A DNA stretch of 64,000 nt from a virus, in IMG/VR virus record IMGVR_UViG_3300005663_000004, positions 19,546-83,545 of that record. One strand, written 5' to 3'. The notes below the pieces were generated by a model that was given only the letters and a program-made list of their open reading frames with translations, was not told where the DNA came from and did not search any database. The position numbers and the translations under genes are program-made. Positions 8,250 to 61,021 of the stretch are shown here, piece after piece. The number at the start of each line of letters is the position of its first letter. The stretch's first letter is position 1.

Positions 8250-8758
8250 GCTTGCACACCCCCAACGTGAGGAGAAGGAACATCATTCAACAAGGCAAAT
8301 TCACCCCATGCCTCAAGAGCAGCAACGTTGTAGGCACAGCCGGCATCTGCTTCATTCACAAAGCGCCCAAGATTCCTGTAATGTCCCGATACAAGTATTT
8401 GAGCACGCCATTTCTTCTTCGGTTTGTCCCAGTAGACACCCTTAAATCTGGAACTTCCCCTAGTCTTCTTTCGATTCGCGGCGTTTTGAGATCTCGTGCA
8501 CACGCGAAGGTTCGCAATCCTACGATTATCGAGTGTGTCATGGTTTACATGGTCAACGAGCACCCCCTTGGGCGCTTTCATGATCTGCCTATGCATATAG
8601 ATTGTCCCTGGTCTCTCTCCTTTGACTCTGGGGACATTGCGCACCGCTTTTGGACCACCTTGCATTGTACACACATGCCACCTGTACTTCGATAGCTCCT
8701 CGTAGTCTTCGTCATCCACTTTTGTCGCATAGCCCCTAGTGAGCTTGATTATTCTCAT
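8246..8758 (-). CDS. HNH homing endonuclease with AP2 domain (copy 1)
   Basis: 170 aa from ATG 8758, which follows the preceding stop (TAGCATG). Order: N-terminal KLTRGYATKVDDEDYEELS segment; HNH core (VDHVNHDTLDNRRIANLR, Asp-His and Asn-His intact) near residues 68-85; RGSSRFKGVYWDKPKKKW AP2 DNA-binding domain; C-terminal YNVAALEAWGEFALLN. Free-standing HNH-AP2 genes are mobile and typically target conserved phage sequences. It sits between two sugar-cassette genes with a 4-nt overlap to the glycosyltransferase. A longer frame to 8797 exists but overlaps the upstream gene. Confidence 0.92.
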   Translation of the reverse strand: MRIIKLTRGYATKVDDEDYEELSKYRWHVCTMQGGPKAVRNVPRVKGERPGTIYMHRQIMKAPKGVLVDHVNHDTLDNRRIANLRVCTRSQNAANRKKTRGSSRFKGVYWDKPKKKWRAQILVSGHYRNLGRFVNEADAGCAYNVAALEAWGEFALLNDVPSPHVGGVQA

Positions 8759-8759
8759 G

Positions 8760-9542
8760 CTACAGCTTCTTGATCTCTGCCAGAATGCGAGCAGCAACCT
8801 GTGCAGGAGTCCATATTCCTGGGGTGTTAAGGATCGTCATGCAGCGTTCTCTTCCTTGAGGAGATTCGTATGGATAACCCTCCCTCGGAGATAGGTTTCG
8901 ATCGAGATAGATCCACCAAGGACGGGTGGGAGCCATTGCATCCTCAACGGAATTTCTGATAGACTCCGTAGGGGCTATTACAGACACAACAACGTTTCTG
9001 TATTTAACTAATTGCTTGGCCAGCCGTGCCACTCGAATGTTATGGGCAAGTCTCTCTTCGATCGAGAAACCAGCTCCTAGAGAGATCGAAGCTCTCATCT
9101 CATCCCCATCCAGGTTCACAGCATTCAAGGGACCCAGGAGCTCGTTTGCTATCGTGGTCTTCCCAGCACCGGAGTTTCCCGTTATCCAATAAATGCGATG
9201 TCCCCCGTCTTCTCGTATCGCCGTTCCGCTCACGTTGGACGCTCTTGGCGCGCTCACTTTTCGAACTTCCCATCCTGGAGTCCTTCCGTAGACGACCTCA
9301 ACGATGTTTGGCACATTGATGATTATCATGCGCCCTTCTGCAATCTCCTCCTTGTAGAAGGCCTCGAAGGCTACCGTTCTTTGCGCTTGAGTGAAGGGGT
9401 TGCTGTCTGTTCCATCCTCTTTTCTTAGGGCGATGACAACGCGCCGTCCCTCACTGAGAACCTTGTCTATCAACGCGAAGTGCCCCCTGTGTGGCATCGG
9501 CACCTGAAAGCGTCCCAGAATCAAGCTATACTCTTTGGACAT
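8760..9542 (-). CDS. Bifunctional nucleotidyltransferase / adenylylsulfate kinase-like protein
   Basis: 260 aa from ATG 9542, chosen for its strong AGGAGGGT site (an upstream ATG at 9590 has a poorer one). N-terminal domain: NMNAT/cytidylyltransferase-type GRFQVPMPHRGH with the HxGH-like motif. C-terminal domain: P-loop GNSGAGKTT, NLDGDEMR, FSIEERLAHNIRVARLAK and IAPTESIR, the set found in APS kinases that make PAPS, the sulfate donor. A sulfotransferase lies four genes away, supporting sulfation of a glycan. The nucleotidyltransferase substrate is not determined; NMN adenylyltransferase or sugar activation are possible. NadR-type kinase is a less likely alternative for the C-terminus. Confidence 0.88.
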   Translation of the reverse strand: MSKEYSLILGRFQVPMPHRGHFALIDKVLSEGRRVVIALRKEDGTDSNPFTQAQRTVAFEAFYKEEIAEGRMIIINVPNIVEVVYGRTPGWEVRKVSAPRASNVSGTAIREDGGHRIYWITGNSGAGKTTIANELLGPLNAVNLDGDEMRASISLGAGFSIEERLAHNIRVARLAKQLVKYRNVVVSVIAPTESIRNSVEDAMAPTRPWWIYLDRNLSPREGYPYESPQGRERCMTILNTPGIWTPAQVAARILAEIKKL

Positions 9543-9593
9543 ATTGACCCTCCTGAAGGTCCACCAGTTGCTTTGAATCCATTCCGTCATCCT

Positions 9594-10163
9594 CTAAAGC
9601 CCAGTCGCTCCTGGCACAGAAAAAATGATTGGGCGCAAAAGCTGTTCGTACTGTGGCGGATACGCTACGATTGCATCGCGGACCAACATAACGATGCTAT
9701 CCTCTAACCTACAACCGATCTCCTCCAGTGTTGGCCACCCCTCAAGCCCCTGTCGGCCAAATAGACGGGCGTCATCGATGAAGATGACATGGTTATACGG
9801 ATGCTGTGCGATAGCATCTAGCTCTTCTCTGATCGGAGGCCTGTGCTTACCATCGTGAGCGTCGAGCCAGAAGAGGATAGGCCCTTCTTTTACAAGACTT
9901 AGAAGATCTGGAAGGAGAGAACCGGAGTCTCCCCAAAGGGCAACGAGGTTCTCCACCCCCGCCTCCTCTGCTACATGCTGCATCGCCAGGTATCCCTTCA
10001 TGCTCTTCTCAATCGTATAAACATCCCTGAAGCGGGATGCAGCCCACATAGCTGTATCACCTCGATGCGTACCAGTTTCGATGAACACGTCAATGGACAA
10101 TGCTTCAGCAATTTCTTCGACCAGTTTTTGGAGATCCTCGTTTGCCGATAGCGATCCACCCAC
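9594..10163 (-). CDS. Methyltransferase-like protein (paralogue 1 of 3)
   Basis: 189 aa, GTG start at 10163 with AAGGAG upstream. FIETGTHRGDTAMWAA looks like a SAM-binding motif I with YTIE following, and FWLDAHDG and FIDDARLFG mark later strands, as in FkbM/class I methyltransferase relatives. Two paralogues lie at 28223-28786 and 31497-32114. Placed in the sugar cassette, it probably modifies a sugar or sugar-linked group. The exact reaction is unknown. Confidence 0.75.
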   Translation of the reverse strand: MGGSLSANEDLQKLVEEIAEALSIDVFIETGTHRGDTAMWAASRFRDVYTIEKSMKGYLAMQHVAEEAGVENLVALWGDSGSLLPDLLSLVKEGPILFWLDAHDGKHRPPIREELDAIAQHPYNHVIFIDDARLFGRQGLEGWPTLEEIGCRLEDSIVMLVRDAIVAYPPQYEQLLRPIIFSVPGATGL

Positions 10164-10178
10164 CTGCAGGTCTCCTTG

Positions 10179-11144
10179 CTACAAACTTTCCTGAAGTACG
10201 TTATCCTCAATCCACCTATAGGTAACTGAGAGTCCTGCCTCTAAGGGAATGCTAGGAGCCCACTTTAGGATTTCGTTGATTCTATCGTTGTTCGAATTTC
10301 GACCACGAACACCCTGTGGACCATCGATATGCTTCTTTTGTATCCTCACACCTGCAATCTCTGCGATGATGTCGGCAAGCTCATTGATAGAGACTAGCCT
10401 GTCACTGCCCAAATTGAGAGGATACGGGTAGTCCGAGCGCATAAGCCTAAGAATCCCCTCGATGCAATCATCTACCAGCATAAATGATCGCGTTTGCTCT
10501 CCATCACCCCAGATCTCTATCCTCGGTTCCCAGGAGGTTCTTTTTCCTTCAGCAATCTTTCTGCAAAGAGCAGCAGGAACCTTCTCTGCATTATCATTCC
10601 AAGATCCCTTCGGCCCATAGACATTATGAAACCGAGCAATCCGCGTAGTCATCCCATAGTCTTCTGCATAGGAAAGGCAGAGTTGCTCCATACACAGCTT
10701 CTCTAGGCCATAGGTATCCTGAGGATCGGCAGGGTAAGCATCATCCTCTTTTAGTCCTAGAATGTCTGTCCGTTCCTGCTTGAAATTTGGGTAGACACAG
10801 GCGGAGGAACTGTAGAAGAAGCGACCTACTCCGCCTGTCCTTGCAGCCTCAAGAATATGTGTGTCTATAAGTAGGTTGTCATGCAGAATGGATGCGCTGT
10901 GAGAGGAGATGAAGCCCATACCTCCCATAGAAGCCGCCAAGTGGTATACCTCATCTATTCCATCCACAGCGATATAGCACGTGGCTCTGTCTCGCAGATC
11001 ACCAAAGAAGAAATCGTCGCATGGAATAGGGCCATACCGTGGTTTAGCAATGTCTGCTCCACGTACCCAATACCCTTCTTCCTTCAACCGCTTTGCCAAA
11101 TGTCCGCCGATGAACCCTGACACACCTGTTACAAGTGCCTTCAT
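10179..11144 (-). CDS. GDP-mannose 3',5'-epimerase-like NAD-dependent epimerase
   Basis: 321 aa short-chain dehydrogenase fold. Features: TGVSGFIGGHLA Rossmann motif, HLAASMGGMGFI, YSSSACVYP with the catalytic Ser/Cys region, DTYGLEKL (YxxxK), ARFHNVYGPKGSWN, WGDGEQTRSFM and GPQGVRGRNSNN. These match plant and bacterial GDP-mannose 3,5-epimerases (GDP-mannose to GDP-L-galactose/L-gulose) better than generic dTDP- or UDP-sugar epimerases. The ATG overlaps the stop of the upstream dehydrogenase gene by 4 nt. It supplies an activated sugar for the cassette. Confidence 0.88.
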   Translation of the reverse strand: MKALVTGVSGFIGGHLAKRLKEEGYWVRGADIAKPRYGPIPCDDFFFGDLRDRATCYIAVDGIDEVYHLAASMGGMGFISSHSASILHDNLLIDTHILEAARTGGVGRFFYSSSACVYPNFKQERTDILGLKEDDAYPADPQDTYGLEKLCMEQLCLSYAEDYGMTTRIARFHNVYGPKGSWNDNAEKVPAALCRKIAEGKRTSWEPRIEIWGDGEQTRSFMLVDDCIEGILRLMRSDYPYPLNLGSDRLVSINELADIIAEIAGVRIQKKHIDGPQGVRGRNSNNDRINEILKWAPSIPLEAGLSVTYRWIEDNVLQESL

Positions 11145-12463
11145 CTTTGCTCCGATACACCAATGTAGCGCATCTTGATCTTCTTGGAGTTCTGTATTTT
11201 GCCCCTGAGAATTCTCCAGCAGTCAACAACTGTTCCCTGCTTCTGCCTCTGCTCGAAATCAGACTGAGAAATCTGGGCAAACTGCTCTGTGCGATTTGCG
11301 ATGATTATGACGTCTGCCTTTTTCAAACAAGCCCCTAGAGACCAAGGCTCAATGAATTCTGGAAGAGACATCTGCCTCATCCTCTCGTCATATCCTACAA
11401 CTCTTACATCCTTAGCTGCCATCCTTCTAGCTAGTTCTATGGAAGGCGATCCAATCATACATGGAGTTCCCGATTTGTATGACAACCCTAGAATGGCAAC
11501 AGTACCTTTTTCACTGAGACATCCGGTAGCAATATCAACAAGTCTTCTCCACCTAGCCTTATTGGATCTGCTTACAGCCCATGGAAAGTTGCCTGGGATA
11601 CAAAGATCTTCTACAATCTCTTCAAAGGCCCTCACATCTCGAGGAAAGCAGGTTCCCCCATACGGCATTCCCGCTATGAAGTATTTCTTTCCGACCCTAG
11701 AGTCAGATCCAACAGCAGCGGAGACCAAGTCGATATCACCACCAGGGAAGCGCTCACAAATGTCCCCAAGAAGATTTGCGAATGCTATCTTCGAAGAAAC
11801 AAACATGTTGATCCCCATCTTGACAATCTCTGCATTAGTGAGTGACATCTGGTGAATCTGATGTGGTTCTACCAGCATTGTTGAGAGTATAAAGCCGACC
11901 AAACCAACTCCAGCCTGCTGACCAGACTGTCCCACGATAACAAGGTTCGGGTTCAGGTAGTCTTCTATGACACTGCCTATGGCAACAAGCTCAGGATTGT
12001 ATGCAAGTTCCCAGCTGTCACCACAGGCGTATCCCGACGCCTGTTCGATCGCCGGCTTGATCACTTCCTCCATCGTTCCTGGCATGAGCGTACTCATCAC
12101 GGAGATGATTCTACTGTCTCCATATGGCACTGTACCTCGGATGGCCTTTCCGATCCGCTTGCACACATCCAGCACATATTCATGAGAAAACTTCCCATTT
12201 TTCAGGCTGGGTGTTGGTACCAGTACACCAATGACATCTGCACCATGCACACCTTGCTTCAGGTCAGTGGACGCGGAAAAGCTCCCCTTTACAGCGGACA
12301 TCATTTGCTTCATGTGGGGCTCATCCACAGGAGAAATCCCTGCGTTAATCTTATCCACAACCTTTCTGTTTTTGTCTATTCCAATGACATCATGGCCTCT
12401 ACTGGCGATGGCAGCCGCTATCGGTGCCCCCAACTTTCCCAGCCCAACTATTGTGATGTTCAC
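11141..12463 (-). CDS. UDP-glucose/GDP-mannose 6-dehydrogenase family protein
   Basis: 440 aa, GTG start overlapping the preceding stop (GTGA). N-terminal NAD motif VGLGKLGAPIAAAIASRGH, central AEIVKMGINMF, catalytic-cysteine motif PYGGTCFPRD, and C-terminal LGLSYKSGTPCMIGSPS. Length and order match NDP-sugar 6-dehydrogenases, which oxidise C6 to uronic acid using two NAD+. Whether the substrate is UDP- or GDP-linked cannot be read. The adjacent GDP-mannose epimerase-like gene makes a GDP-sugar possible. Confidence 0.92.
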   Translation of the reverse strand: MNITIVGLGKLGAPIAAAIASRGHDVIGIDKNRKVVDKINAGISPVDEPHMKQMMSAVKGSFSASTDLKQGVHGADVIGVLVPTPSLKNGKFSHEYVLDVCKRIGKAIRGTVPYGDSRIISVMSTLMPGTMEEVIKPAIEQASGYACGDSWELAYNPELVAIGSVIEDYLNPNLVIVGQSGQQAGVGLVGFILSTMLVEPHQIHQMSLTNAEIVKMGINMFVSSKIAFANLLGDICERFPGGDIDLVSAAVGSDSRVGKKYFIAGMPYGGTCFPRDVRAFEEIVEDLCIPGNFPWAVSRSNKARWRRLVDIATGCLSEKGTVAILGLSYKSGTPCMIGSPSIELARRMAAKDVRVVGYDERMRQMSLPEFIEPWSLGACLKKADVIIIANRTEQFAQISQSDFEQRQKQGTVVDCWRILRGKIQNSKKIKMRYIGVSEQR

Positions 12464-13086
12464 CAGTTTTCCCTAATCCATATTGTCGTTTTCTTATCCC
12501 TCTTCCCATGCGTGAACCAGTTTCTTTGCACGAGAATCGGCTTGGTTGCTCCAAGAAACTTGCCTTTCACGCTTTTTGCTCTTTCTGCGCCTATTCGCTC
12601 CGCTGTCCATGGAGTAGCATGTCTTCGTAGCAACCGACGAAACACACCTGTTTGCCAAATGGTTCCCTTTTGTGAAAACAAAAACGGATTATCTTTGGCC
12701 ATCCTAACGAAAAGAGCATCGCGTTTGTACGGCGTCCCCTTCGTTGTGAATCTCTTCGACAGCCTAACCATGCAGACTGAGGAATCTTCAGTTAGGGCAG
12801 CTAGCGCCCGAGCAATCCTTCGCGGATAAATCTCTACGGGGATGAGATCATCTAGGCAGAGCATCATTAGCTCGTCATGCATGTGATGGCGAAGGAACAA
12901 ATGCAGATTGTCCGCAAAGCCAAGATCTTTTCCCAGCTTGATGACCGTTGCATCAACGTCTATGTTCTCTTCGTTTGTGATGACAATCACGTCGTAGGGA
13001 CACTGTGGCCAAAGTTTCCGAAGAAAATGAATGTGTGCCGGGATAGTATGGGCATACTTGTCACAAGTGGGAATGACAATCTTCAC
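12460..13086 (-). CDS. Small glycosyltransferase-like protein (tandem copy B)
   Basis: 208 aa, GTG start in a GTGA overlap. Begins MKIVIPTCDKY and contains LMMLCLDDLIPVEI, a GT-A-like Asp pair. It resembles the next upstream gene along its length (same start, HxHFLxKLWPxCPY, LxDDL, C-terminal NWxxHGKRDK), so the two are tandem paralogues. Likely transfers a sugar in the cassette; acceptor unknown. Confidence 0.7.
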   Translation of the reverse strand: MKIVIPTCDKYAHTIPAHIHFLRKLWPQCPYDVIVITNEENIDVDATVIKLGKDLGFADNLHLFLRHHMHDELMMLCLDDLIPVEIYPRRIARALAALTEDSSVCMVRLSKRFTTKGTPYKRDALFVRMAKDNPFLFSQKGTIWQTGVFRRLLRRHATPWTAERIGAERAKSVKGKFLGATKPILVQRNWFTHGKRDKKTTIWIRENW

Positions 13087-13742
13087 CAGTGACGCTCAAT
13101 CCACCTGGTTACGAACTTGTCCTTTCGTCCCCGATGGGAGATCCAATTCATCTGCTCCAGGGTAGCGTGGGTAGCCCCAAGGTTCATCCCTCCTCTACTT
13201 CTTAGCCTGGCAGTGCCATTTCCTTCTGTGCGTGTTGATGTCTCTCCTCCCTCAAGAATCGATTGATGAACTGACGATCTCCACAGGGTGGCCTTGTTTG
13301 AGTACGTATACCTATCTCTGCGCATATGCACGTAGATATTGTCAGGCCCATAGCGATCGTGTGGCTTTTCTAGTGGTCGCTTGACCCAACGCTCCGCCAG
13401 CCGAATCTGATTGACGACACGATCTGCAGAGACTACTGTTACTGCCTCCTCGATGAGAACGCCATCAATATGAAACGGGACCAAGTCATCCATGCACAAG
13501 ATGAAAAATTGATCATCTTGAAGGAACCTTTTATGCGTCTCAAGAAAGTTGCTGGCCCACAGCCTATCTTGACCAAGGTGCTCTATCCTAGCATTGATTT
13601 CCTTGGCATGAGGAACGGGAGCAGATCCTCCAACGACCACCAGCACCTCGTATGGGCAGGAAGGCCACAGCTTGTGGAGGAAGTGAACATGTGCGTGAAT
13701 CGTATGCACATACTTGTCGCAGGTGGGGATGACAATCTTCAT
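13083..13742 (-). CDS. Small glycosyltransferase-like protein (tandem copy A)
   Basis: 219 aa, ATG start overlapping the sulfotransferase stop (ATGA). Starts MKIVIPTCDKY like its downstream neighbour; FFILCMDDLVPFHI supplies the presumed metal-binding aspartates. The C-terminal half (YSNKATLWRSS, GATHATLEQMNW) is shared with copy B. The divergence suggests an old duplication with different specificities. The family is only weakly recognisable. Confidence 0.7.
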   Translation of the reverse strand: MKIVIPTCDKYVHTIHAHVHFLHKLWPSCPYEVLVVVGGSAPVPHAKEINARIEHLGQDRLWASNFLETHKRFLQDDQFFILCMDDLVPFHIDGVLIEEAVTVVSADRVVNQIRLAERWVKRPLEKPHDRYGPDNIYVHMRRDRYTYSNKATLWRSSVHQSILEGGETSTRTEGNGTARLRSRGGMNLGATHATLEQMNWISHRGRKDKFVTRWIERHW

Positions 13743-14491
13743 TTGTACCCCCAGCGAGCCATGTATTTTTTGCAGCTTCTTTCAATCATCCTCACCTGAG
13801 TGTGATTCAGCCAGGTTTTCCAGTGGCCAGAAGTTCCGAACACGACAGCAGGAAGAGAAGGGAGCACCGGGTGCTCTCTGGGGGGATTCTCCCCTGCCTT
13901 CTCCAGCTTCCTTCTCTTTTTCCAGTACTCATCTTTTGCCTTCTGCTGATCTGGCAACCTGAATGGGTTGGTAAGTGTCCTTGCCTCTTTTAGGGAGATG
14001 GCGATGCCCAAGAAAGTGGCGATCCGCAATGCCTCTGCAGATAGATCCTCAATCATCACCTCAAACTTTGAGACGTGGATCATGTTTCTTGGAATTTTAT
14101 CTACCCACATGTCAAACCAGCCAAGCCACATGGGAAGCTTTTCATTTATCACTGTCTTCCCAGAAAACTCACCGATCTTCCCAGAGCGTCTTGCTCGCTC
14201 CTGCATGGAGACGAAGATGTCTCTAGGATCTCGAACAGTTCCTACCACCCGAATGCGCCCCTCCTTTAAGAACCGCGCAGCTGTCTCTGACTCGTCTGGT
14301 AGATACCGAAAGACTTTGCAGATGACGAGCTCGTCTTCGTCCTTGTCGTGCTCCACCAGCCTACTCTCCTTGTGATAGCCTATCCCCCTTCCCCTGTTTG
14401 CGTGTTCAACTATGGCAGCCGCTATTCTATTCTGCGTTGTTGATCCTGTACGATACGTCCCTGTGACGAATACCCATATAGGTGCACTCAT
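13739..14491 (-). CDS. PAPS-dependent sulfotransferase-like protein
   Basis: 250 aa, ATG after AGGAGGGT. The N-terminal VFVTGTYRTGSTTQ fits the 5'-phosphosulfate-binding loop. VVGTVRDPRDIFVSM fits the 3'-phosphate-binding motif (RxPxD, then Ser). The C-terminal HWKTWLNHTQVRMIE region is also typical. These enzymes move sulfate from PAPS to a sugar or protein hydroxyl. The APS-kinase-like gene in the same operon could provide PAPS. The acceptor is unknown, most likely a glycan made by the cassette. Confidence 0.83.
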   Translation of the reverse strand: MSAPIWVFVTGTYRTGSTTQNRIAAAIVEHANRGRGIGYHKESRLVEHDKDEDELVICKVFRYLPDESETAARFLKEGRIRVVGTVRDPRDIFVSMQERARRSGKIGEFSGKTVINEKLPMWLGWFDMWVDKIPRNMIHVSKFEVMIEDLSAEALRIATFLGIAISLKEARTLTNPFRLPDQQKAKDEYWKKRRKLEKAGENPPREHPVLPSLPAVVFGTSGHWKTWLNHTQVRMIERSCKKYMARWGYK

Positions 14492-14515: not shown

Positions 14516-15427
14516 CTACCTGCTCCCAATTAGGATGTTGGAATCAAAGTCGATTCTCTTTACAGCCTGTTTTCCACCGAAGGATGTCACAGCGGCAAGG
14601 AGATCGTAGCTGTCTTCCAAGTTTCCCTCCTTTGGTGGTATAGGCTTTCCGCTCATTCGTATGAGCAGTCGCGTCGCTCCGAACCAGTCTCTGTCCTCGA
14701 CCACAGTGCGAACGACCTCTGCCGGGCATTCATTCAACGCGTTTGTTGAAATAAACAACTCAGGATTTCCCAGTGCTTCGTTGCTCATTCTTAGGACGAG
14801 GGATGAGGGGATGATATTTATCTTCCCTTTCTCTGCTTCCTTCCCCTCCACAGTGATCAGGTTGACCGCATCCTCCCCAAAGAGGACGGATAGGTACAAC
14901 CACTGAAGCACACAAACCGGAGGAAAGTCAGCAATCGTATAGGTTAGCGAATCGTGTCCCATCCGCTTGTAGATCTTTGGTTGGCCACCATAGCCAGAGC
15001 CCCAGTCAAGGATTGATTTTGTCTGTCTTATTGGCACCCCCGTTTCCTTTGCAGCCACATACGCGTAGAACAAGAACTTGGTGACATCCCAGTTCACCGT
15101 CTTTCCTAGAAGGTTGGTTTGGGGAACGCCACCAAACTGATCTACAACCAGGGCAGCCTTGGTCAACCGCTGATCAAAGTTGTCCTCCAACCACGTCTTC
15201 ACCAGATTGTACTTCGCAGGGTTGGTTCCCATTCTGCCCCGAAGACCAGGCTTTCCCATGAAATCAAAGTCAGGATGTGGTAGGAGAAGTTTTTCCGCCC
15301 TCCACGCACCACTCACCCAAAAATCCGACAGCTGCTCTTCTTTAGCAAACTGACGGATGTTCTCATACCTCTGTTGCACTTGCTCTCGTAGTCTCAAATA
15401 CCTATCGTGTTGCGTTTCCTCCAACAT
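14516..15427 (-). CDS. Putative sugar O-methyltransferase
   Basis: 303 aa, ATG after AGGAGGGT. SILDWGSGYGGQPKIY is the SAM-binding GxGxG, TIADFPP the acidic strand-2 end, and FISTNALNECP follows in order. The architecture matches putative sugar O-methyltransferases of capsule and O-antigen clusters. It is the first gene of the cassette after the capsid gene, separated from it by the repeat-plus-hairpin element. Confidence 0.72.
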   Translation of the reverse strand: MLEETQHDRYLRLREQVQQRYENIRQFAKEEQLSDFWVSGAWRAEKLLLPHPDFDFMGKPGLRGRMGTNPAKYNLVKTWLEDNFDQRLTKAALVVDQFGGVPQTNLLGKTVNWDVTKFLFYAYVAAKETGVPIRQTKSILDWGSGYGGQPKIYKRMGHDSLTYTIADFPPVCVLQWLYLSVLFGEDAVNLITVEGKEAEKGKINIIPSSLVLRMSNEALGNPELFISTNALNECPAEVVRTVVEDRDWFGATRLLIRMSGKPIPPKEGNLEDSYDLLAAVTSFGGKQAVKRIDFDSNILIGSR

Positions 15428-15448
15428 TGCTGGTTACCCTCCTGATAA

Positions 15449-15468
15449 GGGAGGGCCGAAGCCCTCCC
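15449..15468 (-). terminator. C(UUCG)G hairpin, terminator-like
   Basis: On the minus strand GGGAGGGC-TTCG-GCCCTCCC forms a perfect 8-bp stem with an extra-stable UUCG tetraloop, 25 nt after the solitary repeat and 22 nt before the methyltransferase start. The following T run is short (TTATC), so it may terminate partially or act as an RNA 3'-end stabiliser or processing barrier. Confidence 0.7.
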
Positions 15469-15493
15469 TGATGAATACGACACACAGAACCAC

Positions 15494-15530
15494 GTTTCAA
15501 TCCCCATCCACCTCTGTGGGTGGATGCAAC
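15494..15530 (-). repeat. Solitary CRISPR-type repeat (copy 1)
   Basis: 37 nt read on the minus strand: GTTG, stem arm CATCCACC, loop CACAGA, arm GGTGGATG, GGG, then the 8-nt tag ATTGAAAC typical of type I/III CRISPR repeats. It matches the copy at 60529 at 30 of 37 positions; the differences are the six loop bases and one stem base that keeps pairing (A-U versus G-U). No second repeat follows within spacer distance. It lies between capsid and methyltransferase genes in a late mRNA. Confidence 0.88.
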
Positions 15531-15551
15531 TAGCTCCTACAAACGAAGTGT

Positions 15552-16985
15552 TTACCACTCCTTGTAGTAGCTTGGCGGCGTCGGGTAGTACTCGTCTCCA
15601 CCCTTCTCGAAGTACGGGCTGGATGGGAAGGGCTCACGCAGATGCTGGAGCGGCTCGTACATGATGTTCTCGAGACGACCGGCTAGTTGGGGAGTCCTGA
15701 GCACCACTCGGGGCTCAATTTTCCCCTGGAACTTGAAACAGTAATTCAAGTTCTGCATGCTCCACATGTATCGGCCCCCATCGGTAACCCAAAACTGTCC
15801 CTTGTTCCGTAGCACAGCCAGATCGCCCTGAGCCTGTGAGTAGTCCAGATACTCCCAGTACAACGTCCTCATCCCCTTCGCCCGAAGCGGAAGGATGTAG
15901 ATGTCGCTGGCAAACTGACCAGGGATCAGGTTTGCATTGGTCGCGTTATTGTCTTCGAAAATACCGTCATCAGTGATGACCGGAACCTGGAGACCGTTGA
16001 TCCAGAGGTACTTTCCCCTCCGCATTTCGTCTCTCATGTTCACATTCGTCGCATCATTCATGATCACGACATTCGTACCCGCAGAGTTTGCACATCGATC
16101 GGTGAGATACTGGCAGGGCCATACGGCGCTCAGCTCGAAGAAAAGCTGCGGTCGCATAGCAATGACCCAGTCCACAGGATCGAGGCTCATGCGCTCGGCG
16201 TTGTGGGTCAGATACTGCATCATCATCGAGAGATACTGAACGATGCTAGGAGAGGCTCCATCGATGCTGTTGAATCCAAAGTCTTTGATGTCTGAATCCA
16301 AAGCAGGGCAAGGAGACTGGCTGAGTGCGTCAACCTTTCCAGTCGAGACCAGGATCTCAAGTCCAGGAAACTCCGCATATCCGCCGTTGGTGTTGTTCAC
16401 AGGGTTGCCCTGGAAAAGCATCCTCGTAAGCCACCGCTGAAACTCAATGCCGATGATGACGAGCTGCGACTGAACAACAGAGTTCAGCCATCCGCCCTTG
16501 GGAACACCTTCCTGAGTCAACAGCTGATGACCCTCACCAATGACATCACCTAGAAGGCGAAGATCTGTGGTGAGTTTGTTATTCAACACCTGCATTAGCG
16601 TGTTGACTTCCATCTCTTTCGAGCTTCGTGCCACACGGCCAAAGGCAGCAGTCTGATGACAGACCTCGAGAACACCACCAGGGGCGTCATCACAGGGGCC
16701 ATCCGGCTCAGCCGATCCATCCCCCTCAAAGCCGGTGAGGAAGGGGTAGATTGGGTTCAGGTAGACTGTTGGGATTGCCGGAATCATACCCGACATGCCC
16801 CGAGGAGAAATAGACGCATTGATAACCGTGTCTTCAAGACCAAAGTTGCTGAAGAAGCCCTTTGGTCCGAAGACGAGCTGTGCATTAGGAACACCGGAGA
16901 TCGCCTTTTGCTGGATTTGATTACCAGCGAGGAGGGCGAGAGTCTTGTTGATGCCCTCCAAAATTGCAACTGTTTGCCTATCCAC
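15552..16985 (-). CDS. Major capsid protein (probable)
   Basis: 477 aa from GTG 16985, preferred because GGAGGG lies 7 nt upstream (GTG 17000 has no site). Sits right after the protease-scaffold gene, where HK97-fold capsid genes lie. Soluble mixed protein with an N-terminal helical segment (VAILEGINKTLALLAG) and a C-terminal Pro/Tyr-rich tail; no enzyme motif. Seven Cys are unusual and could allow crosslinks. Identification is by position and size; the fold is not directly visible. Confidence 0.72.
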   Translation of the reverse strand: MDRQTVAILEGINKTLALLAGNQIQQKAISGVPNAQLVFGPKGFFSNFGLEDTVINASISPRGMSGMIPAIPTVYLNPIYPFLTGFEGDGSAEPDGPCDDAPGGVLEVCHQTAAFGRVARSSKEMEVNTLMQVLNNKLTTDLRLLGDVIGEGHQLLTQEGVPKGGWLNSVVQSQLVIIGIEFQRWLTRMLFQGNPVNNTNGGYAEFPGLEILVSTGKVDALSQSPCPALDSDIKDFGFNSIDGASPSIVQYLSMMMQYLTHNAERMSLDPVDWVIAMRPQLFFELSAVWPCQYLTDRCANSAGTNVVIMNDATNVNMRDEMRRGKYLWINGLQVPVITDDGIFEDNNATNANLIPGQFASDIYILPLRAKGMRTLYWEYLDYSQAQGDLAVLRNKGQFWVTDGGRYMWSMQNLNYCFKFQGKIEPRVVLRTPQLAGRLENIMYEPLQHLREPFPSSPYFEKGGDEYYPTPPSYYKEW

Positions 16986-18993
16986 TTTTGTTCCCTCCAC
17001 CGAGGAATGTGTCCATTAGGGCATCGCCCATGTCCTGGACAACACCTGCCCCGACGCTTTCTTGGTCGGCCTTTTCCTTCGCCGCTACAGTAGCATTAGG
17101 ATCAACGGTTTTTGGATCGGTCGACGGACGAGTAAGCGATGCGCGAGTCGATTGATTCCGTCGCAGCGCCTGTACCTCAAATGAGACGGAGGCGAGTTGG
17201 TCAGACATCTCTTTCACCAAGCCGGCTAGAGCTTCCTGCCCTTCGTCAGCAGTGAAATTCGGTGGATCGGAGGCGACTTCTTTGGCCTTTTTCTTGGCCT
17301 TGCCGTCCTTACCATCCTCGTCGTCTTCGTCTTCCTCTTCATCTTCCTGTTTCTTCTTCTTGGCCTTCTCAGCCAAGGAGAGGAAGGCTACCTTGAGTTC
17401 ACAGTCTGGCAGGTCACCCATCGCCTTTATGAACAAGTCATTTGGGTCAGGTTCCTGGGTGTCTTCCTTCTCCTCCTGGTCGGGAATGTGTGACACGAAG
17501 ACAGCAGCACTCTTGAGTATCTGCTTGTGATCTTCGTTTTCCTCCGCGTCGACCATCATCAAGAGCTCTTTCACCAGGTTATCTCGTGAGATCTCCTCGT
17601 CCTTGAAGATGGCATCCGGCTCGACTGACTTAGCATTGATTCCATCCGCCTGAGAGACTGCTTTCGTGGCCAGTTCATCGCCGAGCAGCTCTCGGAGAAT
17701 GGCAATCTTGTGTTGCAACATTTCTGGTTCTCCTTCAGTAGTGATCCGAGAGAAGACATTCGCAGACTGCTGGACAGGAAGTAATGATCTCTCTAGGATC
17801 GCAATGCTGTGATAAACGTTATTGACTCTTTTTCCTCGCACATCGACGTTGCGTTCCTTATCTGTTGGGTCAGAAAGGAATGCAATGCTGATCGCCCATC
17901 TTTCAGGGTGCCTCGATGTTTCTTTCCTGGCCTGCTGGCTAACTGCATCGTTGTACCACAGGCCGGATTCTATCAGACACAACCCATCGTGCATCGCAAA
18001 GTCGCAGTTGCCGAAGTCGACACCCCTCACGTGCCAAAAACGCAGTGGACCACGGTCTTTGACCACACTGTCTGCAGACCTCTCCAATGCCTTGGAGGAT
18101 ACGATGTCAAACTCACGGTCCATGAAAGCAGTGGACGAAATCGATACCCAACGATATTGTCCATCATGCTGCTTTGTGGTGAAGAACACGTTCTGCCCCT
18201 TGGTGATCGCAGGCTCTGGTGCTAACTCCTTCGTCAGCATCTGCCCCAACGAGGACCACACCTGGGAGAACTTATCCTTCCAACTCTTCGGCTTTGCTCG
18301 CGTTCCCATGAGAGGTGCTCCACAATCGGGGCAGACCTTGTCTACACAAGCTGCACCCTTCGAGTGGTCTCCGGAGTAGCCGCACTCCTTGCAAACACAG
18401 GTGCCTACTCCATCCTCTAGGACCGCTTTCTCTTGCCCTCCTGATTTTATATCCAACAGAGCAGGGGCTGGAAGAACACTGGTCCCGTCTGATTTCCGCG
18501 TCTCCTCGGTCACCGACGCTCCCTCTTCCTGCTCAGAAAGAACTTTGTCCACAGACAGGTTTACTTGCCTGTGCGAATGCTCCATGCCCCATCCCTTGTG
18601 TGTTTTCCCCGCAAGGTAGGTTGCAATCTTGTCCCACGTTTCCGGAGTTATCTCTGCTACCTCGTCAAGCCATACCAAAGGAGATCCTAAGGCATTCTCC
18701 TTTTTCACAGGCCATGACACCACACCAACTCGCGGAAGCTGCAGGTGATGCTGCACGGAACCGTCTTTGGGGATAGCACCCGTGTTCATCCCAAGTCGCC
18801 ATGCGAGATCCGCGACCAGTTGAACAAGGAGGTCCTTCTGCCTACGCTCCTCAGAAGACTCAATCGCACCTATTTGCGCCACTGCGGCCTCCCTACTATC
18901 GTGACATCCCATTGACTTCCCTGCGGCTGTTCCGTCTGGGGACTTCTTGAACACACAATGCTGTCCGCCTTGCATAACGATGGTGTATGGCAT
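16978..18993 (-). CDS. Fused prohead protease and scaffold protein
   Basis: 671 aa. N-terminal 1-70 small domain (GQHCVFKKSPDGTAAGKSMG). A four-cysteine zinc ribbon sits near 200-230 (CKECG...CPDCG). The protease region (about 270-420) has STAFMDREFDIVSSKAL, HDGLCLIESGLWYND and WAISIAFLSDP, resembling XkdF/phage serine proteases of the prohead. The C-terminal third is highly charged with KKKQEDEEEDEDDEDGKDG and a coiled coil, as expected of a scaffold. It lies immediately before the capsid gene and overlaps its start. Catalytic residues are not certain. Confidence 0.75.
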   Translation of the reverse strand: MPYTIVMQGGQHCVFKKSPDGTAAGKSMGCHDSREAAVAQIGAIESSEERRQKDLLVQLVADLAWRLGMNTGAIPKDGSVQHHLQLPRVGVVSWPVKKENALGSPLVWLDEVAEITPETWDKIATYLAGKTHKGWGMEHSHRQVNLSVDKVLSEQEEGASVTEETRKSDGTSVLPAPALLDIKSGGQEKAVLEDGVGTCVCKECGYSGDHSKGAACVDKVCPDCGAPLMGTRAKPKSWKDKFSQVWSSLGQMLTKELAPEPAITKGQNVFFTTKQHDGQYRWVSISSTAFMDREFDIVSSKALERSADSVVKDRGPLRFWHVRGVDFGNCDFAMHDGLCLIESGLWYNDAVSQQARKETSRHPERWAISIAFLSDPTDKERNVDVRGKRVNNVYHSIAILERSLLPVQQSANVFSRITTEGEPEMLQHKIAILRELLGDELATKAVSQADGINAKSVEPDAIFKDEEISRDNLVKELLMMVDAEENEDHKQILKSAAVFVSHIPDQEEKEDTQEPDPNDLFIKAMGDLPDCELKVAFLSLAEKAKKKKQEDEEEDEDDEDGKDGKAKKKAKEVASDPPNFTADEGQEALAGLVKEMSDQLASVSFEVQALRRNQSTRASLTRPSTDPKTVDPNATVAAKEKADQESVGAGVVQDMGDALMDTFLGGGNKSG

Positions 18994-19679
18994 TATGTCG
19001 TTACTATCGCAACGGTCGGCTTCGGTCCAGCTCCGCCTTTAGCGATCGCGGCCTGAAGAACAGGCCCGATTTCTCTTGCCATTTTCTTCTGCATTTCAAG
19101 AGCGATAGAGGCAGAGAATCCACGAGGCTCAACACCAGGATGCTTGACCCTCTCGTACTTCTTTACGTAGTTCCCTGTCCTGTCCCGCTTTCGTGTATTC
19201 AATCCGGGGAAAGACATGAGGAAGCTAGGAGCCGTTTTCGGCGCATAGGGATTGGACCAGAAGAGAAATCCTCCCTCTTCCTTCGGGCCAATCCAGTGTT
19301 CCCCAGTGCCATAGTCGATCAGTGTGTATAAGGCAGCAAGATCCATTTCTTTCGAGCCACCAGGGCTGGGCTGAGTTGGACTTAGACCGGCCAAAACAAG
19401 CATGTCACCAGAAGCAAGAAAGCTTTGCTTGATGACCTTGAATCTTGGATGCCTTTTCCACGAAAGAACCGTCTGCCTATACAAATCGGATCCCGAGGAT
19501 CCCACTCTCCCTAGCCAGTTAAGAATTTCCAGGCGAACATCTTGAAGCGTCCACAAATCAGGAAAGACAGGGAGAAGACCATACAGCTCGCCACCGGGTG
19601 TTACTGAGCCAGCAGCAAATGCTGTTGATCGAAAATGCGGGTCTGCTCCGCGAACCGATCCTGTATCCTGGCTAGCCAA
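18993..19679 (-). CDS. HK97 gp10-like / minor head protein
   Basis: 228 aa from TTG 19679 (AGAGGT 6 nt upstream; a longer TTG start at 19700 exists). The central YGTGEHWIG and the C-terminal KHPGVEPRGFSASIALEMQ match the pattern of HK97 gp10-like head-tail proteins. Overlaps the portal 3' end and abuts the protease start. Likely a head-completion or tail-attachment component. Its position before the protease is unusual for gp10 families. Confidence 0.6.
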   Translation of the reverse strand: MASQDTGSVRGADPHFRSTAFAAGSVTPGGELYGLLPVFPDLWTLQDVRLEILNWLGRVGSSGSDLYRQTVLSWKRHPRFKVIKQSFLASGDMLVLAGLSPTQPSPGGSKEMDLAALYTLIDYGTGEHWIGPKEEGGFLFWSNPYAPKTAPSFLMSFPGLNTRKRDRTGNYVKKYERVKHPGVEPRGFSASIALEMQKKMAREIGPVLQAAIAKGGAGPKPTVAIVTT

Positions 19680-21021
19680 GGTGGTACCTCTGCATAACAA
19701 CCTGCATGGCTGATCTCATCTCTTGTAGAGATCGAACGATATGAGTGACCCTTTCCTCTTCTTCATCTCTTGGATCGGCTATCGTCGCCTGAGCCAAGAA
19801 GGACTCGGGAGCGTCGCCCTCAGTAACTGCAAGTTCTAATGCCTGTTGCGGCGTGATTTCTTGCGAAGTTACTCTCAGCGCACGCTCCCGTGCCCTGGCG
19901 TGGGAAAGCTCAACTCTCTCACGTTCTGCCGCAGGATCAGTCGAAGTAAACTGAAACTCAAGCGACTGCGGCAGAACAAAGTGGTTGAAGCCAAACTCAA
20001 ACTGCTGAATAATAACGCCAGGTCCCTTTCCCCTCGCCTTCGCCGCCATCGTTTCAACTTGTGAAGCGGAACCCAGGTTTCCCCCCGGCAAAGGAGCGAA
20101 CTCCGAGTAGTCTGTACCAAAGCCAAGCGCCAAAGTGGCGATGTACCACTTCAGAAGAATATCTTCGTTGAATCCATCAGGCAGGCCGGCTAGTTCAATA
20201 AGCTTTGCGTCCAATGGAACACCGGGGTCAGGACCAGCCAAAATGACGGGACCCGTGTAGAGAGTCCTTCCCCGATGCTCTATCTCCGCCTCCATCGACC
20301 GTGTGATCGCTTCCTCTACAGCACCCCGCCGAATTCCCTGAACAAAGAGGATGCCAGGAACACGCTTTCCAGATAGCTTCTGTCTTTTGTAAACGCTCAG
20401 TGCCTTCAGTGTCTGAGCCGCTCGCAGGATTCTCGATATGGCACAGAATCCGATACCGACATGTTTTTCCCGTGAGGAGGGCATGTCCACCATTGGAATG
20501 ACATCATACCACTGCAGCTTATGAACATTGTCACGCACATCATAGTAGTCGACAGGCTGCACAGGGTCCCCTGTACGAACGCATCTCTGTGAATCCAGCT
20601 GGGCAACGCCCTGGGCAGCTGTGTGCTTACCGGATCCGGGCTGTCTCAGCAGCTCAATGAATGCCCCATTGTCTTGCGTAAACAAATCCTGTGCAAGGGC
20701 GAAGACGAAATGTATCCAGCCATTCCCCAAATCTGCTGATTGGAGAATGGTATTCCACCGATTCACTGCCTTTCGCGGACCAGTGAGCTTGTAGTCCAAA
20801 GCCGCGATCTTGGCACACATGGAATACACCGCGCCGGCCACGATTGGCTCTTCTCTCCAGATCCTATCCAAGTACACATCTCTCTGTGGAGTAGGCCACG
20901 TAGGGGTATCGTCGGCCAAAGCAGAAAGATAGAAGACCAAGGGAGAAAGAGCGCTTGCCTCTTGCTCAGCCCTGTTTTGAATGGACAGATCCACTTGGAC
21001 CTGTGGATCGACGATACCCAT
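19672..21021 (-). CDS. Portal protein
   Basis: 449 aa, immediately downstream of the large terminase. Portal-like features: an N-terminal region with WREEPIVAGAVYSMCAKIAAL, a central VGIGFCAISRILRAAQTLKAL stem-like helix, and a C-terminal helical region with ARARERALRVTSQEITPQQALEL. It forms the dodecameric ring for DNA entry and exit. Family by order and architecture. Confidence 0.85.
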   Translation of the reverse strand: MGIVDPQVQVDLSIQNRAEQEASALSPLVFYLSALADDTPTWPTPQRDVYLDRIWREEPIVAGAVYSMCAKIAALDYKLTGPRKAVNRWNTILQSADLGNGWIHFVFALAQDLFTQDNGAFIELLRQPGSGKHTAAQGVAQLDSQRCVRTGDPVQPVDYYDVRDNVHKLQWYDVIPMVDMPSSREKHVGIGFCAISRILRAAQTLKALSVYKRQKLSGKRVPGILFVQGIRRGAVEEAITRSMEAEIEHRGRTLYTGPVILAGPDPGVPLDAKLIELAGLPDGFNEDILLKWYIATLALGFGTDYSEFAPLPGGNLGSASQVETMAAKARGKGPGVIIQQFEFGFNHFVLPQSLEFQFTSTDPAAERERVELSHARARERALRVTSQEITPQQALELAVTEGDAPESFLAQATIADPRDEEEERVTHIVRSLQEMRSAMQVVMQRYHLG

Positions 21022-21030
21022 GAATGTCTC

Positions 21031-22404
21031 CTACATACCTGTCCAGATGCTGGCATAGTATTGCTGCAAGGAAGCTGGATGTGCAGCACGCTCGGCTGCT
21101 TCGTCCATCATTCTCTTGTCATGAGCTCTTTGAGCAAGAACAGCGTCAGGATCAGCTTCCTCTCCCCAAATATCTTCCCTGTCCTTAAACCAAAGACCGT
21201 ATCTTAGAGCATCTGCTGCATTGTCGGACGCTTTGATCGGTTTCTTCGTGGCGGAGTCCCTCACATACCCAGGGATCTCTTTCAAGGAGAACTCACAGCG
21301 TGGATGCCAGCGAACGTGCGCAACACCTGCAGCGTTGCGGATCCACGAGGCCGTCCTCTTTATTCCTTCCTCCACACTGTGCGTCGCCTTGATAGTATCA
21401 ATGTTCTTGTTCCATAATCGCGATCGCAGCTCCGCTGCTGAGGAGTCCACGTAAGCTAAACCCGGAAGAGGCCATGGACGATCAAGTGCATTATCGATGG
21501 AGATCTCTGGCAGCTCATACGTTGCTACATACTCGTCGAAAACATTGATAAAAGGAGGAATGATTTGCGCCATTAGGATGACTCTCGGGTGCCCTACGGT
21601 GAAGCCATCATCCACCCACCACTCAATAGGGACCCCAGAAAAGTAATCTGCTTTCTCTGTGACGTTTCTACCGGAAGGCTCGAAATCATCCCAAATGGCC
21701 CCATCCAAGGAAACAAACCCGCCAAGCAGCTCTTGCTCCCGCATCTTCCCTGTATACAGTCCCATGAGTGTCGCATAGTAGAAGGGATCGACATGCTGCT
21801 TGTTGTCTTCCGTAGTGACATGGAAATAGTCAACGACCTTCCCCTTGTATCCCAGCTCGTAAAGAATCTTTAGGACATCCTCATCAAAGATACCCTTAAC
21901 GAAGACATCGTATAGCCAATGAGCAATACCTGCGGGGGTTGTCGTGACCCACAGTTGGGGGTTAAGTCCAACGCGTATTCGAGCTGCAAGGATGTTGAAG
22001 GCTAAGCGAGTTCGCTTCCGTCCTCCCTCATCGAACCAAGCCCAATTAACATTTGGCCCTGCCCATCCCTTCTCTTTCTCAATTCCTCCGTAGTAGACCA
22101 AGACCTCCTTTCCCCGAATGTTGAAAGTCATGATCTTCTTTTGGGTATGTGGGTGGTCCAGGTGTGCATTTGTACACAAAGACATTGGTGCCCACTTCAG
22201 AAACTCGGGAAAAGTGGACTTATACAGCTGGGGAAAATCGGGAGCAACGATGATCCCATCCTCCCCCTCACTGATCTTCTTGACCGCCTTCACAGCTCCA
22301 GCAGCAGTCTTACCACTCCCAACTCCTCCCATCAATCCTATGTATCTTGCTAGAGACAGTAGGAATTGCGATTGTGGAATTGAGGCGACAAATCGCTTAG
22401 GCAT
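21031..22404 (-). CDS. terL: Terminase large subunit
   Basis: 457 aa. ATPase: Walker A GGVGSGKT near residue 27, Walker B WAWFDEG near residue 125, and VTTTPAG coupling motif. The RNase H-like nuclease has acidic clusters WVDDGF, AYVDSSAAEL and DNAADALRYG. Drives DNA packaging through the portal and cuts concatemers. The small subunit lies about 5 kb upstream with virion genes in between, an unusual separation. Confidence 0.95.
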   Translation of the reverse strand: MPKRFVASIPQSQFLLSLARYIGLMGGVGSGKTAAGAVKAVKKISEGEDGIIVAPDFPQLYKSTFPEFLKWAPMSLCTNAHLDHPHTQKKIMTFNIRGKEVLVYYGGIEKEKGWAGPNVNWAWFDEGGRKRTRLAFNILAARIRVGLNPQLWVTTTPAGIAHWLYDVFVKGIFDEDVLKILYELGYKGKVVDYFHVTTEDNKQHVDPFYYATLMGLYTGKMREQELLGGFVSLDGAIWDDFEPSGRNVTEKADYFSGVPIEWWVDDGFTVGHPRVILMAQIIPPFINVFDEYVATYELPEISIDNALDRPWPLPGLAYVDSSAAELRSRLWNKNIDTIKATHSVEEGIKRTASWIRNAAGVAHVRWHPRCEFSLKEIPGYVRDSATKKPIKASDNAADALRYGLWFKDREDIWGEEADPDAVLAQRAHDKRMMDEAAERAAHPASLQQYYASIWTGM

Positions 22405-28798: not shown

Positions 28799-29290
28799 TC
28801 ATGCGTTGTTAGGTGAAGCAAATTCACCAAAGTATTCCACAGCGGCTAAGTCATAAGCACAAGCGGCATCGCGCTCGTTGGAGAAACATCCCAGGTGGTA
28901 GCGTTTGCCCTCTTTTTGTATCTGAGCGAGCCACCTGCGATCGCGCTTGTGCCAGTAAACACCCTTATATCGCGACGAACAACCAAGACGCTTCCGCGAA
29001 TTCATTAAGTTCTGCGATCTTGTGCACCTTCGAATGTTCTTTCGCTGATTATCCAGTGTATCGTGGTTTGCGTGGTCAACGTCTTCTCCTGGTTGAGCAT
29101 CAAGGATGACGCGATGCATGTAAATTATCCGGTGACCACTACCCCCATCGGCCTTCGGAGCCACACGCACTGCCCTTGGTCCACCAGCCTGCACGGACAC
29201 GGCAGCATACCACTTCCATAGCGAAAGCCACTCGTAGTCTTCATCATCTACTAGAGAAACGAAGCCTTGTGTCAGAGGAATCTCCTTCAT
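28799..29290 (-). CDS. HNH homing endonuclease with AP2 domain (copy 2)
   Basis: 163 aa. MKEIPLTQGFVSLVDDEDYE N-terminus, HNH core VDHANHDTLDNQRKNIRR with intact Asp-His and Asn-His, CSSRYKGVYWHKRDRRW AP2 domain, and C-terminal AYDLAAVEYFGEFAS. Same family as copies at 8246, 29501, 55688 and 57527. Flanked by a methyltransferase-like gene and a 64-aa gene. Confidence 0.92.
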   Translation of the reverse strand: MKEIPLTQGFVSLVDDEDYEWLSLWKWYAAVSVQAGGPRAVRVAPKADGGSGHRIIYMHRVILDAQPGEDVDHANHDTLDNQRKNIRRCTRSQNLMNSRKRLGCSSRYKGVYWHKRDRRWLAQIQKEGKRYHLGCFSNERDAACAYDLAAVEYFGEFASPNNA

Positions 29291-29500: not shown

Positions 29501-29977
29501 TCATAATTCATTAAGAAGAGCAAACTCCCCCCACTCTTTGCCTGCTCTCACATTGTAGGCTCTGGCAGCATCCTTTTCCCTATCGAAGCGACCAAGATTG
29601 GTAACATGGTTAGACACTGTTATCTGCGCTCGCCATTTCTTCCTTGGCTTGTCCCATACAACCCCTTTATATCTGCTTGAGCATCCCCTCATCTTGTATC
29701 TGTTCACAAGATTTTGGGCATGCGTACACAAGCGAAGATTTCTCTTGCAATTGAATAGCGTATCGTGATTGATGTGATCCACCTGCCTATCTGATGGAGC
29801 GTCCATAATCTGCCTGTGCATCAAAACAGTTTTATGTTCGCCATCGACGGTGACACTCCGAACAGCCCTCGGGGCATTCCTATGCATTTGAGCACACCAC
29901 TTCCACTGAGACAACCATTCATAGTCTTCGTCATCTACAAGGGCTACAAAACCTTGCGTCAGAGGAATCTCCTTCAC
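29501..29977 (-). CDS. HNH homing endonuclease with AP2 domain (copy 3)
   Basis: 158 aa. MKEIPLTQGFVALVDDEDYE, HNH core VDHINHDTLFNCKRNLR (catalytic His pair intact), CSSRYKGVVWDKPRKKW AP2 domain, AYNVRAGKEWGEFALLN end. Nearly the same N-terminus as copies 2 and 4, indicating recent spread. Confidence 0.92.
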   Translation of the reverse strand: MKEIPLTQGFVALVDDEDYEWLSQWKWCAQMHRNAPRAVRSVTVDGEHKTVLMHRQIMDAPSDRQVDHINHDTLFNCKRNLRLCTHAQNLVNRYKMRGCSSRYKGVVWDKPRKKWRAQITVSNHVTNLGRFDREKDAARAYNVRAGKEWGEFALLNEL

Positions 29978-34323: not shown

Positions 34324-34337
34324 TATTCCTCCTCTTG

Positions 34338-34409
34338 TAGGACGCCGGGGAATTGAACCCCGATTGGAGGGTTGAAGGCCCTCTAGCCTATCCGTTAGCT
34401 GAGCGCCCC
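34338..34409 (-). tRNA. tRNA-Glu (UUC), copy 1
   Basis: 72 nt, no encoded CCA. Acceptor GGGGCGC/GCGUCCU (two G-U), D stem AGCU/GGCU, anticodon stem GAGGG/CCCUC with loop CCUUCAA, anticodon UUC (34376-34374), T arm CGGGG-UUCAAUU-CCCCG. Position 33 is C rather than U, which is unusual and may weaken decoding. Confidence 0.85.
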
Positions 34410-36991: not shown

Positions 36992-37082
36992 TCGGTCCCT
37001 CCGGCCAAATGTGCCTGTACAAAGCAGCAATTGCATCGTCTACCAAGGTCACATAGCCCTTGGTCAGTGAAATCTCTCTCAT
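36984..37082 (-). pseudogene. N-terminal remnant of AP2-HNH endonuclease
   Basis: 32-codon frame, ATG in an ATGA overlap with the gene above. It reads MREISLTKGYVTLVDD and then departs to AIAALYRHIWPEGPNA before a stop. The first 16 residues match the start of the five full AP2-HNH copies, while the HNH and AP2 parts are gone. The frame still links the genes above and below by start-stop overlaps, so it may survive as a coupling peptide. Confidence 0.75.
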
Positions 37083-37986: not shown

Positions 37987-38075
37987 ACCGAAATCAGGAG
38001 GCAGTCAGCTTGCCCGATCTCAGGTTGAAAGAATCTGTCTGTGGCCCCCATGGAGACCCTAGTAGAAACTCCCAG

Positions 38076-60471: not shown

Positions 60472-60528
60472 CCCGATCGAGGAAGGTGAGACTCTCTTGA
60501 GTGGCAGGCATCTTGGGAGTTTGGAGAA

Positions 60529-60565
60529 GTTGCATCCGCCTCTGCGGGTGGATGGGGATTGAAAC
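60529..60565 (+). repeat. Solitary CRISPR-type repeat (copy 2)
   Basis: 37 nt: GTTG, arm CATCCGCC, loop TCTGCG, arm GGTGGATG (one G-U pair), GGG, tag ATTGAAAC. Same layout and 30/37 identity to copy 1 with loop replacement. It ends 9 nt (AAACAAACG) before the start codon of the 148-aa gene, so it lies in that gene's mRNA leader; no second repeat follows. Confidence 0.88.
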
Positions 60566-60574: not shown

Positions 60575-61021
60575 ATGTATAGAGTAGGCATCTTGGAAGT
60601 GTGGCAAAGAAACATTCTTGTCGAAGCCGAAACGAAAGCAGCGGCTGTTGAGGCTGTGCTATCTTCCAAGGTGCCTGCTATGCAAGAAAGTCTGACCTAC
60701 TTACGTATCTTAGATCCAAAGGAGTGGATGGTAGAGTCCACAGAGCCAGAGGAAATTCTAGCAGAAGCACTCGGTCTTGTTGGAGCACTATGCTCCATTA
60801 TACAGATGAGTGGAGGAGACAAACGTGAGGTACTAGAGAGAGCAAAAGCGTGGGAAAACAGGTTCCTCGCATTTGCACAGGATGCTCAAGAGGCAGATGA
60901 ACAACCAAGCAGAGTACAAGGCAACGAAGACGGAACAGATGAGCCTGACTTCAGTGGAGATGCTCTTCTCGGGGATAGTAAAATCCCTAAGCAAGCTGGG
61001 ATATGGGACGTCAGTGGATGA
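60575..61021 (+). CDS. Unknown protein immediately downstream of the solitary repeat
   Basis: 148 aa. Helical core (KAAAVEAVLSSKVPAMQE, EALGLVGALCSIIQM), acidic tail. It has no separate Shine-Dalgarno; the repeat's GGGG block is 17-20 nt upstream. The last third overlaps the peptidase gene. Unknown. Confidence 0.62.
   Translation: MYRVGILEVWQRNILVEAETKAAAVEAVLSSKVPAMQESLTYLRILDPKEWMVESTEPEEILAEALGLVGALCSIIQMSGGDKREVLERAKAWENRFLAFAQDAQEADEQPSRVQGNEDGTDEPDFSGDALLGDSKIPKQAGIWDVSG

Follow-up and report, generated by a model that had tools for sequence, protein, structure and literature searches.

A solitary type I-C-like CRISPR repeat behind a probable phage head gene as a candidate RNA anti-CRISPR

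Results

Gene and RNA elements at the locus

The DNA analysed here (hereafter the window) is a stretch of 64,000 nucleotides forming part of an 83,545-base virus record (IMG/VR IMGVR_UViG_3300005663_000004), and the segment under study is read on its minus strand. On that strand a gene for a 482-aa conserved phage protein ends in a TAA stop codon (15554-15552), followed in order by 21 nt, a 37-nt CRISPR-like repeat (a solitary repeat unit, which we call SRU1), 25 nt and a UUCG hairpin. This is exactly the arrangement reported in an earlier reading of the letters (henceforth the sequence-only reading). The features are as follows.

15552..17000, minus: conserved phage protein of 482 aa, a probable major head protein to judge from gene order alone
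15531..15551, minus: 21-nt gap from the stop codon to SRU1, ACACTTCGTTTGTAGGAGCTA
15494..15530, minus: SRU1, solitary 37-nt type I-C-like CRISPR repeat, GTTGCATCCACCCACAGAGGTGGATGGGGATTGAAAC
15494..15504, minus: 11-nt tail of SRU1, unpaired in the predicted structure, also given as GGGATTGAAAC
15469..15493, minus: 25-nt segment from repeat to hairpin, GTGGTTCTGTGTGTCGTATTCATCA
15449..15468, minus: hairpin core, GGGAGGGC-TTCG-GCCCTCCC, 8 named pairs
15448..15469, minus: 9-bp C(UUCG)G hairpin, intercistronic, with the flanking A-T pair included
14516..15427, minus: next gene of the operon, with its ribosome-binding site AGGAGGG directly after the hairpin

SRU1 is made up of 4 nt, an 8-nt stem arm, a 6-nt loop, a second 8-nt stem arm and the 11-nt tail (GGGAUUGAAAC). 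It is intergenic in the virus record, between the open reading frames (ORFs) at 14516-15427 and 15552-17000, and no ORF of at least 80 aa overlaps it. The hairpin had been described as a perfect 8-bp UUCG hairpin; it is indeed perfect, and its stem is one pair longer (9 bp) because the A-T pair 15469-15448 belongs to it. Once that pair is counted in the stem, 24 unpaired nt separate repeat and hairpin.

The upstream gene had been labelled a capsid gene, and its position downstream of the terminase large subunit (21031-22404) agrees with that label. Specifically, the order of the terminase, a very weak portal match (19672-21021; phrog_11117, E 0.26) and then the gene at 15552..17000 is what identifies the 482-aa product as a probable major head protein, and the "late" expression of its gene is likewise deduced from gene order. 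The protein itself gave no capsid match: family searches were uninformative, a PDB profile search returned weak chance matches only, and fold predictions with 5 and 8 homologues had a mean pLDDT of 29 and were unusable.

Two solitary repeats that differ in the loop

A pattern for the 37-nt repeat matched twice in the window (15494-15530 on the minus strand and 60529-60565 on the plus strand), compared with no matches in 100 shuffles. Across the whole 83.5-kb record, the Rfam family CRISPR-DR9 (RF01322) had exactly two matches up to E = 10 (1.8e-6 and 3.0e-6), namely SRU1 and the second copy, SRU2, both aligned end to end over 37 positions. Their scores (30.1 and 30.7 bits) are below the Rfam gathering cut-off of 45 bits: both copies share with DR9 the 37-nt length, the position of the stem and an 11-nt GGAUUGAAAC-type tail, but differ from it in the sequence of the stem. 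The second locus comprises:

60529..60565, plus: SRU2, second solitary repeat, 30/37 identical to SRU1
60575..61021, plus: 148-aa ORF, weakly DpnD/PcfM-like (PF14207, E 2e-4, below cut-off), with its ATG 9 nt after SRU2

Of the 37 positions, the copies differ at seven, namely the complete six-position loop and one stem site, position 10, at which A-U gives way to G-U and pairing is kept; the stem and the 11-nt tail are otherwise unchanged. The chance that seven random differences would include all six loop sites is 3e-6. This confinement of divergence to the loop points to constraint on the stem and tail, i.e., on the parts recognised by a repeat endonuclease. The same pattern could alternatively result if the two copies were captured separately from related arrays.

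When the 100-nt flanks of SRU1 and SRU2 were searched for a second full or degenerate repeat, local matches stayed at the level of random stretches, so neither copy is a mini-array; a comparison of the flanks also found no context shared by the two loci. The 25-nt segment behind SRU1 had been suggested to be spacer-like. Matches to it elsewhere in the phage record are at most 12 nt long, and an exact match is lacking in 2.9 million viral contigs, so neither comparison gives a sign of a spacer. The repeat itself is real and has the form of a CRISPR repeat.

SRU2 also lies between two imperfect direct repeats (60506-60524 and 60586-60604; 17/19 identical, 80 nt apart), the downstream one being the start of the 60575 ORF. 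They score 28, above the best of 3000 random placements (27), and the arrangement fits a partial gene duplication or an insertion footprint.

Repeats of this shape occur in type I-C arrays

Searches for array repeats with the exact stem and tail found none in 85k genomes, and a pattern for the exact shape had no match in viral contigs. A looser 22-base pattern recovered 17 stretches (from Chloroflexi, Deinococcales/Truepera, Armatimonadota, Betaproteobacteria and others), in which the repeats are 7 to 13 mismatches away from the phage repeat. Type I-C arrays with the same repeat shape are listed below.

L016, L017, L018, L023, L026, L027 and L028: type I-C arrays of Chloroflexi, Armatimonadota, Deinococcales and Betaproteobacteria

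Such arrays resemble the phage repeat in having 37-nt GUUGC...GGAUUGAAAC repeats of the same shape; they differ from it by the 7 to 13 mismatches and in being organised with spacers and cas genes. The arrays L016 and L023 adjoin genes for Cas1c, Cas4, Cas7/Csd2 and Cas8c/Csd1, and both L016 (in addition to these) and L027 have Cas5c and Cas3. Cas5c was encoded on the array's own contig in seven genomes (G011, G012 and G017 to G021) and on a contig other than that of the array in G013; it was absent from the other four genomes, which hold only one to three scattered repeat matches. Cas6, checked as the PF10040 family, was absent from six of the seven genomes with Cas5c on the array's contig, and the seventh has it on another contig.

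In type I-C systems, which lack Cas6, the repeat is cut by Cas5d/Cas5c, leaving an 11-nt 5' handle (PMC5965380; PMC10651486 Extended Data Fig. 9; PMC7684278), and the unpaired tail after the SRU1 stem has this same length of 11 nt. Given that Cas5c accompanies arrays of the same shape and that the tail is 11 nt, the host enzyme to be expected is Cas5c and not Cas6. The proposal that host Cas6 processes the transcript is thus not upheld, and the phage repeat, judged by the arrays that share its shape, is type I-C-like.

Search for matching host repeats and spacers

The SRUFinder rule defines a solitary repeat unit by at least 90% identity to a known CRISPR repeat. The closest array repeats matched 30/37 positions of SRU2 and 29/37 of SRU1, as found with fixed-position patterns, which may miss some 90% matches. 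A repeat search allowing 2 mismatches, carried out in 400 Chloroflexota and 291 Armatimonadota genomes, had as its nearest case a Fimbriimonadales array that is off by 7/37. Comparing the repeat by BLAST with plasmids and phages gave short chance matches only, all at less than 80% coverage, among them stretches of some 25 nt in P. aeruginosa phages (E 0.1-0.5). In the opposite direction, 77 array spacers compared with the phage had only chance-size matches. No Cas5c was found in the phage record, and the search for defence proteins in the phage found none.

Solitary repeats of this kind were also seen elsewhere. In the bacterial bin AUK090, which has no Cas5c, three contigs carry solitary repeats of this shape, three non-identical copies in all; one of them adjoins an L31-like ribosomal gene (by reading of the sequence). 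Moreover, two other viral contigs each carry a single DR9-like repeat of I-C type, scoring 43 bits, i.e., just under the DR9 cut-off, and these could be further Racr (RNA anti-CRISPR) candidates.

L020 192-228, L021 4001-4037 and L029 1697-1733: solitary repeats of AUK090
L032 4470-4506 and L033 10720-10756: single repeats of the two viral contigs

The hairpin is shared with relatives that have no repeat

According to the sequence-only reading, repeat, spacer-like segment and hairpin form one compact unit that could yield a short RNA with its 3' end at the hairpin. Of random 60-nt stretches taken from these phages, 4% contain a stem of at least 9 pairs, so the hairpin is beyond chance expectation. 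We looked at the corresponding junction on other phage contigs that carry a homologous head-type gene (54-67% identical protein), examining eight contigs that represent about six distinct lineages, some of the contigs being near-identical. All eight have a stem of 10-14 pairs starting 4-33 nt behind the stop codon (random 60-nt stretches have such stems in 1.6% of cases), and in each the next gene follows close behind. By contrast, none of the eight has a repeat at this junction, and DR9 searches of their records (several of which are fragments) found no match. The hairpin therefore predates the repeat at the junction and is independent of it.

The sequences of the relatives' hairpins differ between lineages, with a common core in two of them (L050/L051/L053); one relative has the same ribosome-binding stretch after the hairpin as the phage (ATCAGGAGGGTA). 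Comparing 15448-15469 with the same place in L045-L054, the structure is conserved and the sequence largely is not. The phage hairpin is followed by UAUCAGGAGG, and a U-tract is missing here as well as in all eight relatives.

Since the hairpin stands behind the gene in relatives without the repeat, and, lacking a U-tract, has nothing to mark it as a 3' end, the compact unit dissolves into two elements. From this comparison the UUCG hairpin is a separate, ancestral intercistronic element, and it probably serves as an mRNA 3'-end stabiliser or processing signal. A stable, GC-rich stem at a conserved position directly behind a gene would suit an ordinary intrinsic terminator that ends the head-gene transcript, a reading that concerns the hairpin alone and does not compete with the interpretation of the repeat; we nevertheless find it improbable, given the missing U-tract, the absence of the hairpin from the terminator scan, and a start codon within 21 nt with a ribosome-binding site in between. 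The positional conservation of this hairpin cautions that adjacent RNA elements should not be taken for a single unit.

Discussion

Solitary repeats as probable RNA anti-CRISPRs

A solitary repeat of this form is best explained as an I-C-type RNA anti-CRISPR (Racr), and we consider it reasonably likely that SRU1 is one. It would then probably be a new case of an anti-CRISPR class described only recently, and no new type of unit. The explanation is supported by what is directly observed in the record (i.e., two sole DR9 matches with their predicted fold, the loop-only divergence that indicates constraint on stem and tail, and the solitary state of both copies), together with the co-occurrence of this repeat class with type I-C arrays and the precedent of RacrIC1. 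It is weakened by the lack of any array repeat closer than the 30/37 (SRU2) and 29/37 (SRU1) given above, by DR9 scores below the gathering cut-off and by the absence of the repeat from the related phages tested, meaning it is not conserved in the lineage.

The closest precedent, RacrIC1 from a Bifidobacterium pseudocatenulatum prophage, lies 11 nt behind acrIC5, is carried with it on one bicistronic RNA and inhibits type I-C (PMC10651486). Like SRU1, it is a solitary, intergenic repeat of I-C type placed a few nucleotides behind a phage gene, and the suggestion that the phage repeat is a mimic placed for co-transcription with its upstream gene appears sound when set against this arrangement. 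However, the upstream gene of RacrIC1 is an acr gene whereas that of SRU1 is a probable head gene, and, unlike RacrIC1, SRU1 has a second repeat in the same phage and is known from sequence alone, with no matching host repeat found. Similarly, RacrIF1 and other Racrs (PMC10651486) share with SRU1 a single phage-borne repeat with an intact stem-loop and tail but no spacer.

We infer the following course of transcription, cutting, sequestration and benefit to the phage. Being in the short gap behind the probable head gene, SRU1 would place one repeat stem-loop in every transcript of the operon. In an infected type I-C cell, Cas5c would bind this stem-loop and treat it like pre-crRNA, cleaving it at the base, presumably between 15505 and 15504, such that the 11-nt tail becomes a 5' handle. 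The cut products would tie up Cas5c, as well as Cas7 polymerising along the RNA, leaving less functional Cascade, and SRU2, on the plus-strand gene arm, would have the same effect from a different transcript. Placed in the transcript of a late gene, a repeat may be made too late to stop interference with incoming DNA.

Which cut product would act

In type I-F systems, Cas6f remains on the stem-loop, and inhibition comes from the upstream product; a handle-only variant of RacrIF1 was inactive (PMC10651486). I-C Cascade is built differently: the 5' handle is gripped by Cas5c, Cas7 binds the backbone regardless of its sequence, and there is no Cas6 on a 3' stem-loop (PMC7684278). With Cas5c staying on the 5' handle, the active product of a I-C Racr may differ from that of RacrIF1, and it may be the handle side that is kept.

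One sub-case of the Racr explanation is that the downstream product acts, with the 11-nt handle, the following 24-25 nt and the UUCG hairpin serving as a dummy crRNA around which a short, non-targeting Cascade would assemble. Such a product is near to the unit proposed in the sequence-only reading, with Cas5c replacing Cas6. The architecture of I-C Cascade favours it, as does the observation in the I-F study that a non-targeting crRNA also lowered interference; we hold it to be unlikely, however, considering that the hairpin is ancestral and, having no U-tract, sets no 3' end, and that in the case of RacrIF1 it was the upstream and not the handle-only product that worked. What remains of the earlier idea is this revised form, in which the hairpin, as a bystander, would cap the product by coincidence. 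A fuller scenario, which we regard as distinctly unlikely, combines these elements: a Racr in the 3' end of the probable head-gene message would act as a Cas5c trap, the handle, 24 nt and ancestral hairpin would lead to a dead-end short Cascade, and CRISPR would be titrated in step with late expression, with the second copy on the other arm covering another phase.

Explanations without anti-CRISPR activity

The repeat could instead be a cis-acting cut site, at which host Cas5c splits the RNA of the head gene and the next gene and alters the stability or ratio of the messages with no net anti-CRISPR effect. On the sense strand, SRU1 sits exactly in the gap between two genes and SRU2 precedes a start codon by 9 nt, and repeat-like sequences can serve Cas-dependent regulation (Camara-Wilpert et al.). 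Yet the relatives manage the same gene junction with the hairpin alone, and phage gene expression would become tied to a host defence system that is absent in many hosts, which makes this account very doubtful. Less probable still is a now functionless relic, i.e., a piece of a host array or mini-array that recombination brought in: this would agree with the absence of the repeat from the related phages tested, with no second repeat being left and with the imperfect 19-nt direct repeat bounding SRU2 as a trace of past insertion or duplication, but a relic would decay evenly, whereas the two copies keep the stem and 11-nt tail while the loop has fully diverged.

If the Racr explanation holds, the phage would add to a field in which Racrs are recent and the founding paper tested only one type I-C example. 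As a I-C-type case with two copies whose loops are fully diverged and whose stem and handle are fixed, it offers a natural test of the bases that Cas5c needs. A I-C Racr can also show whether the handle side or the stem side is the inhibitor, given that Cas5c is held on the 5' handle and Cas6f on the stem-loop.

Other features of the window

The only tRNA genes in the record are two for tRNA-Glu(TTC), at 34337-34409 and 38075-38147 on the minus strand. Beyond the repeat locus, the minus strand at 5865-14491 holds sugar and sulfate genes (glycosyltransferase, APS kinase, epimerase, UDP-glucose dehydrogenase and sulfotransferase), with virion or host surface modification as a possible role. Repeated gene starts that are 74-81% alike occur on both strands (29204-29290, 29891-29976, 37034-37088, 55688-55771 and 57521-57575); since the gene at 57425-58009 encodes an HNH endonuclease, they probably belong to a mobile HNH gene family.
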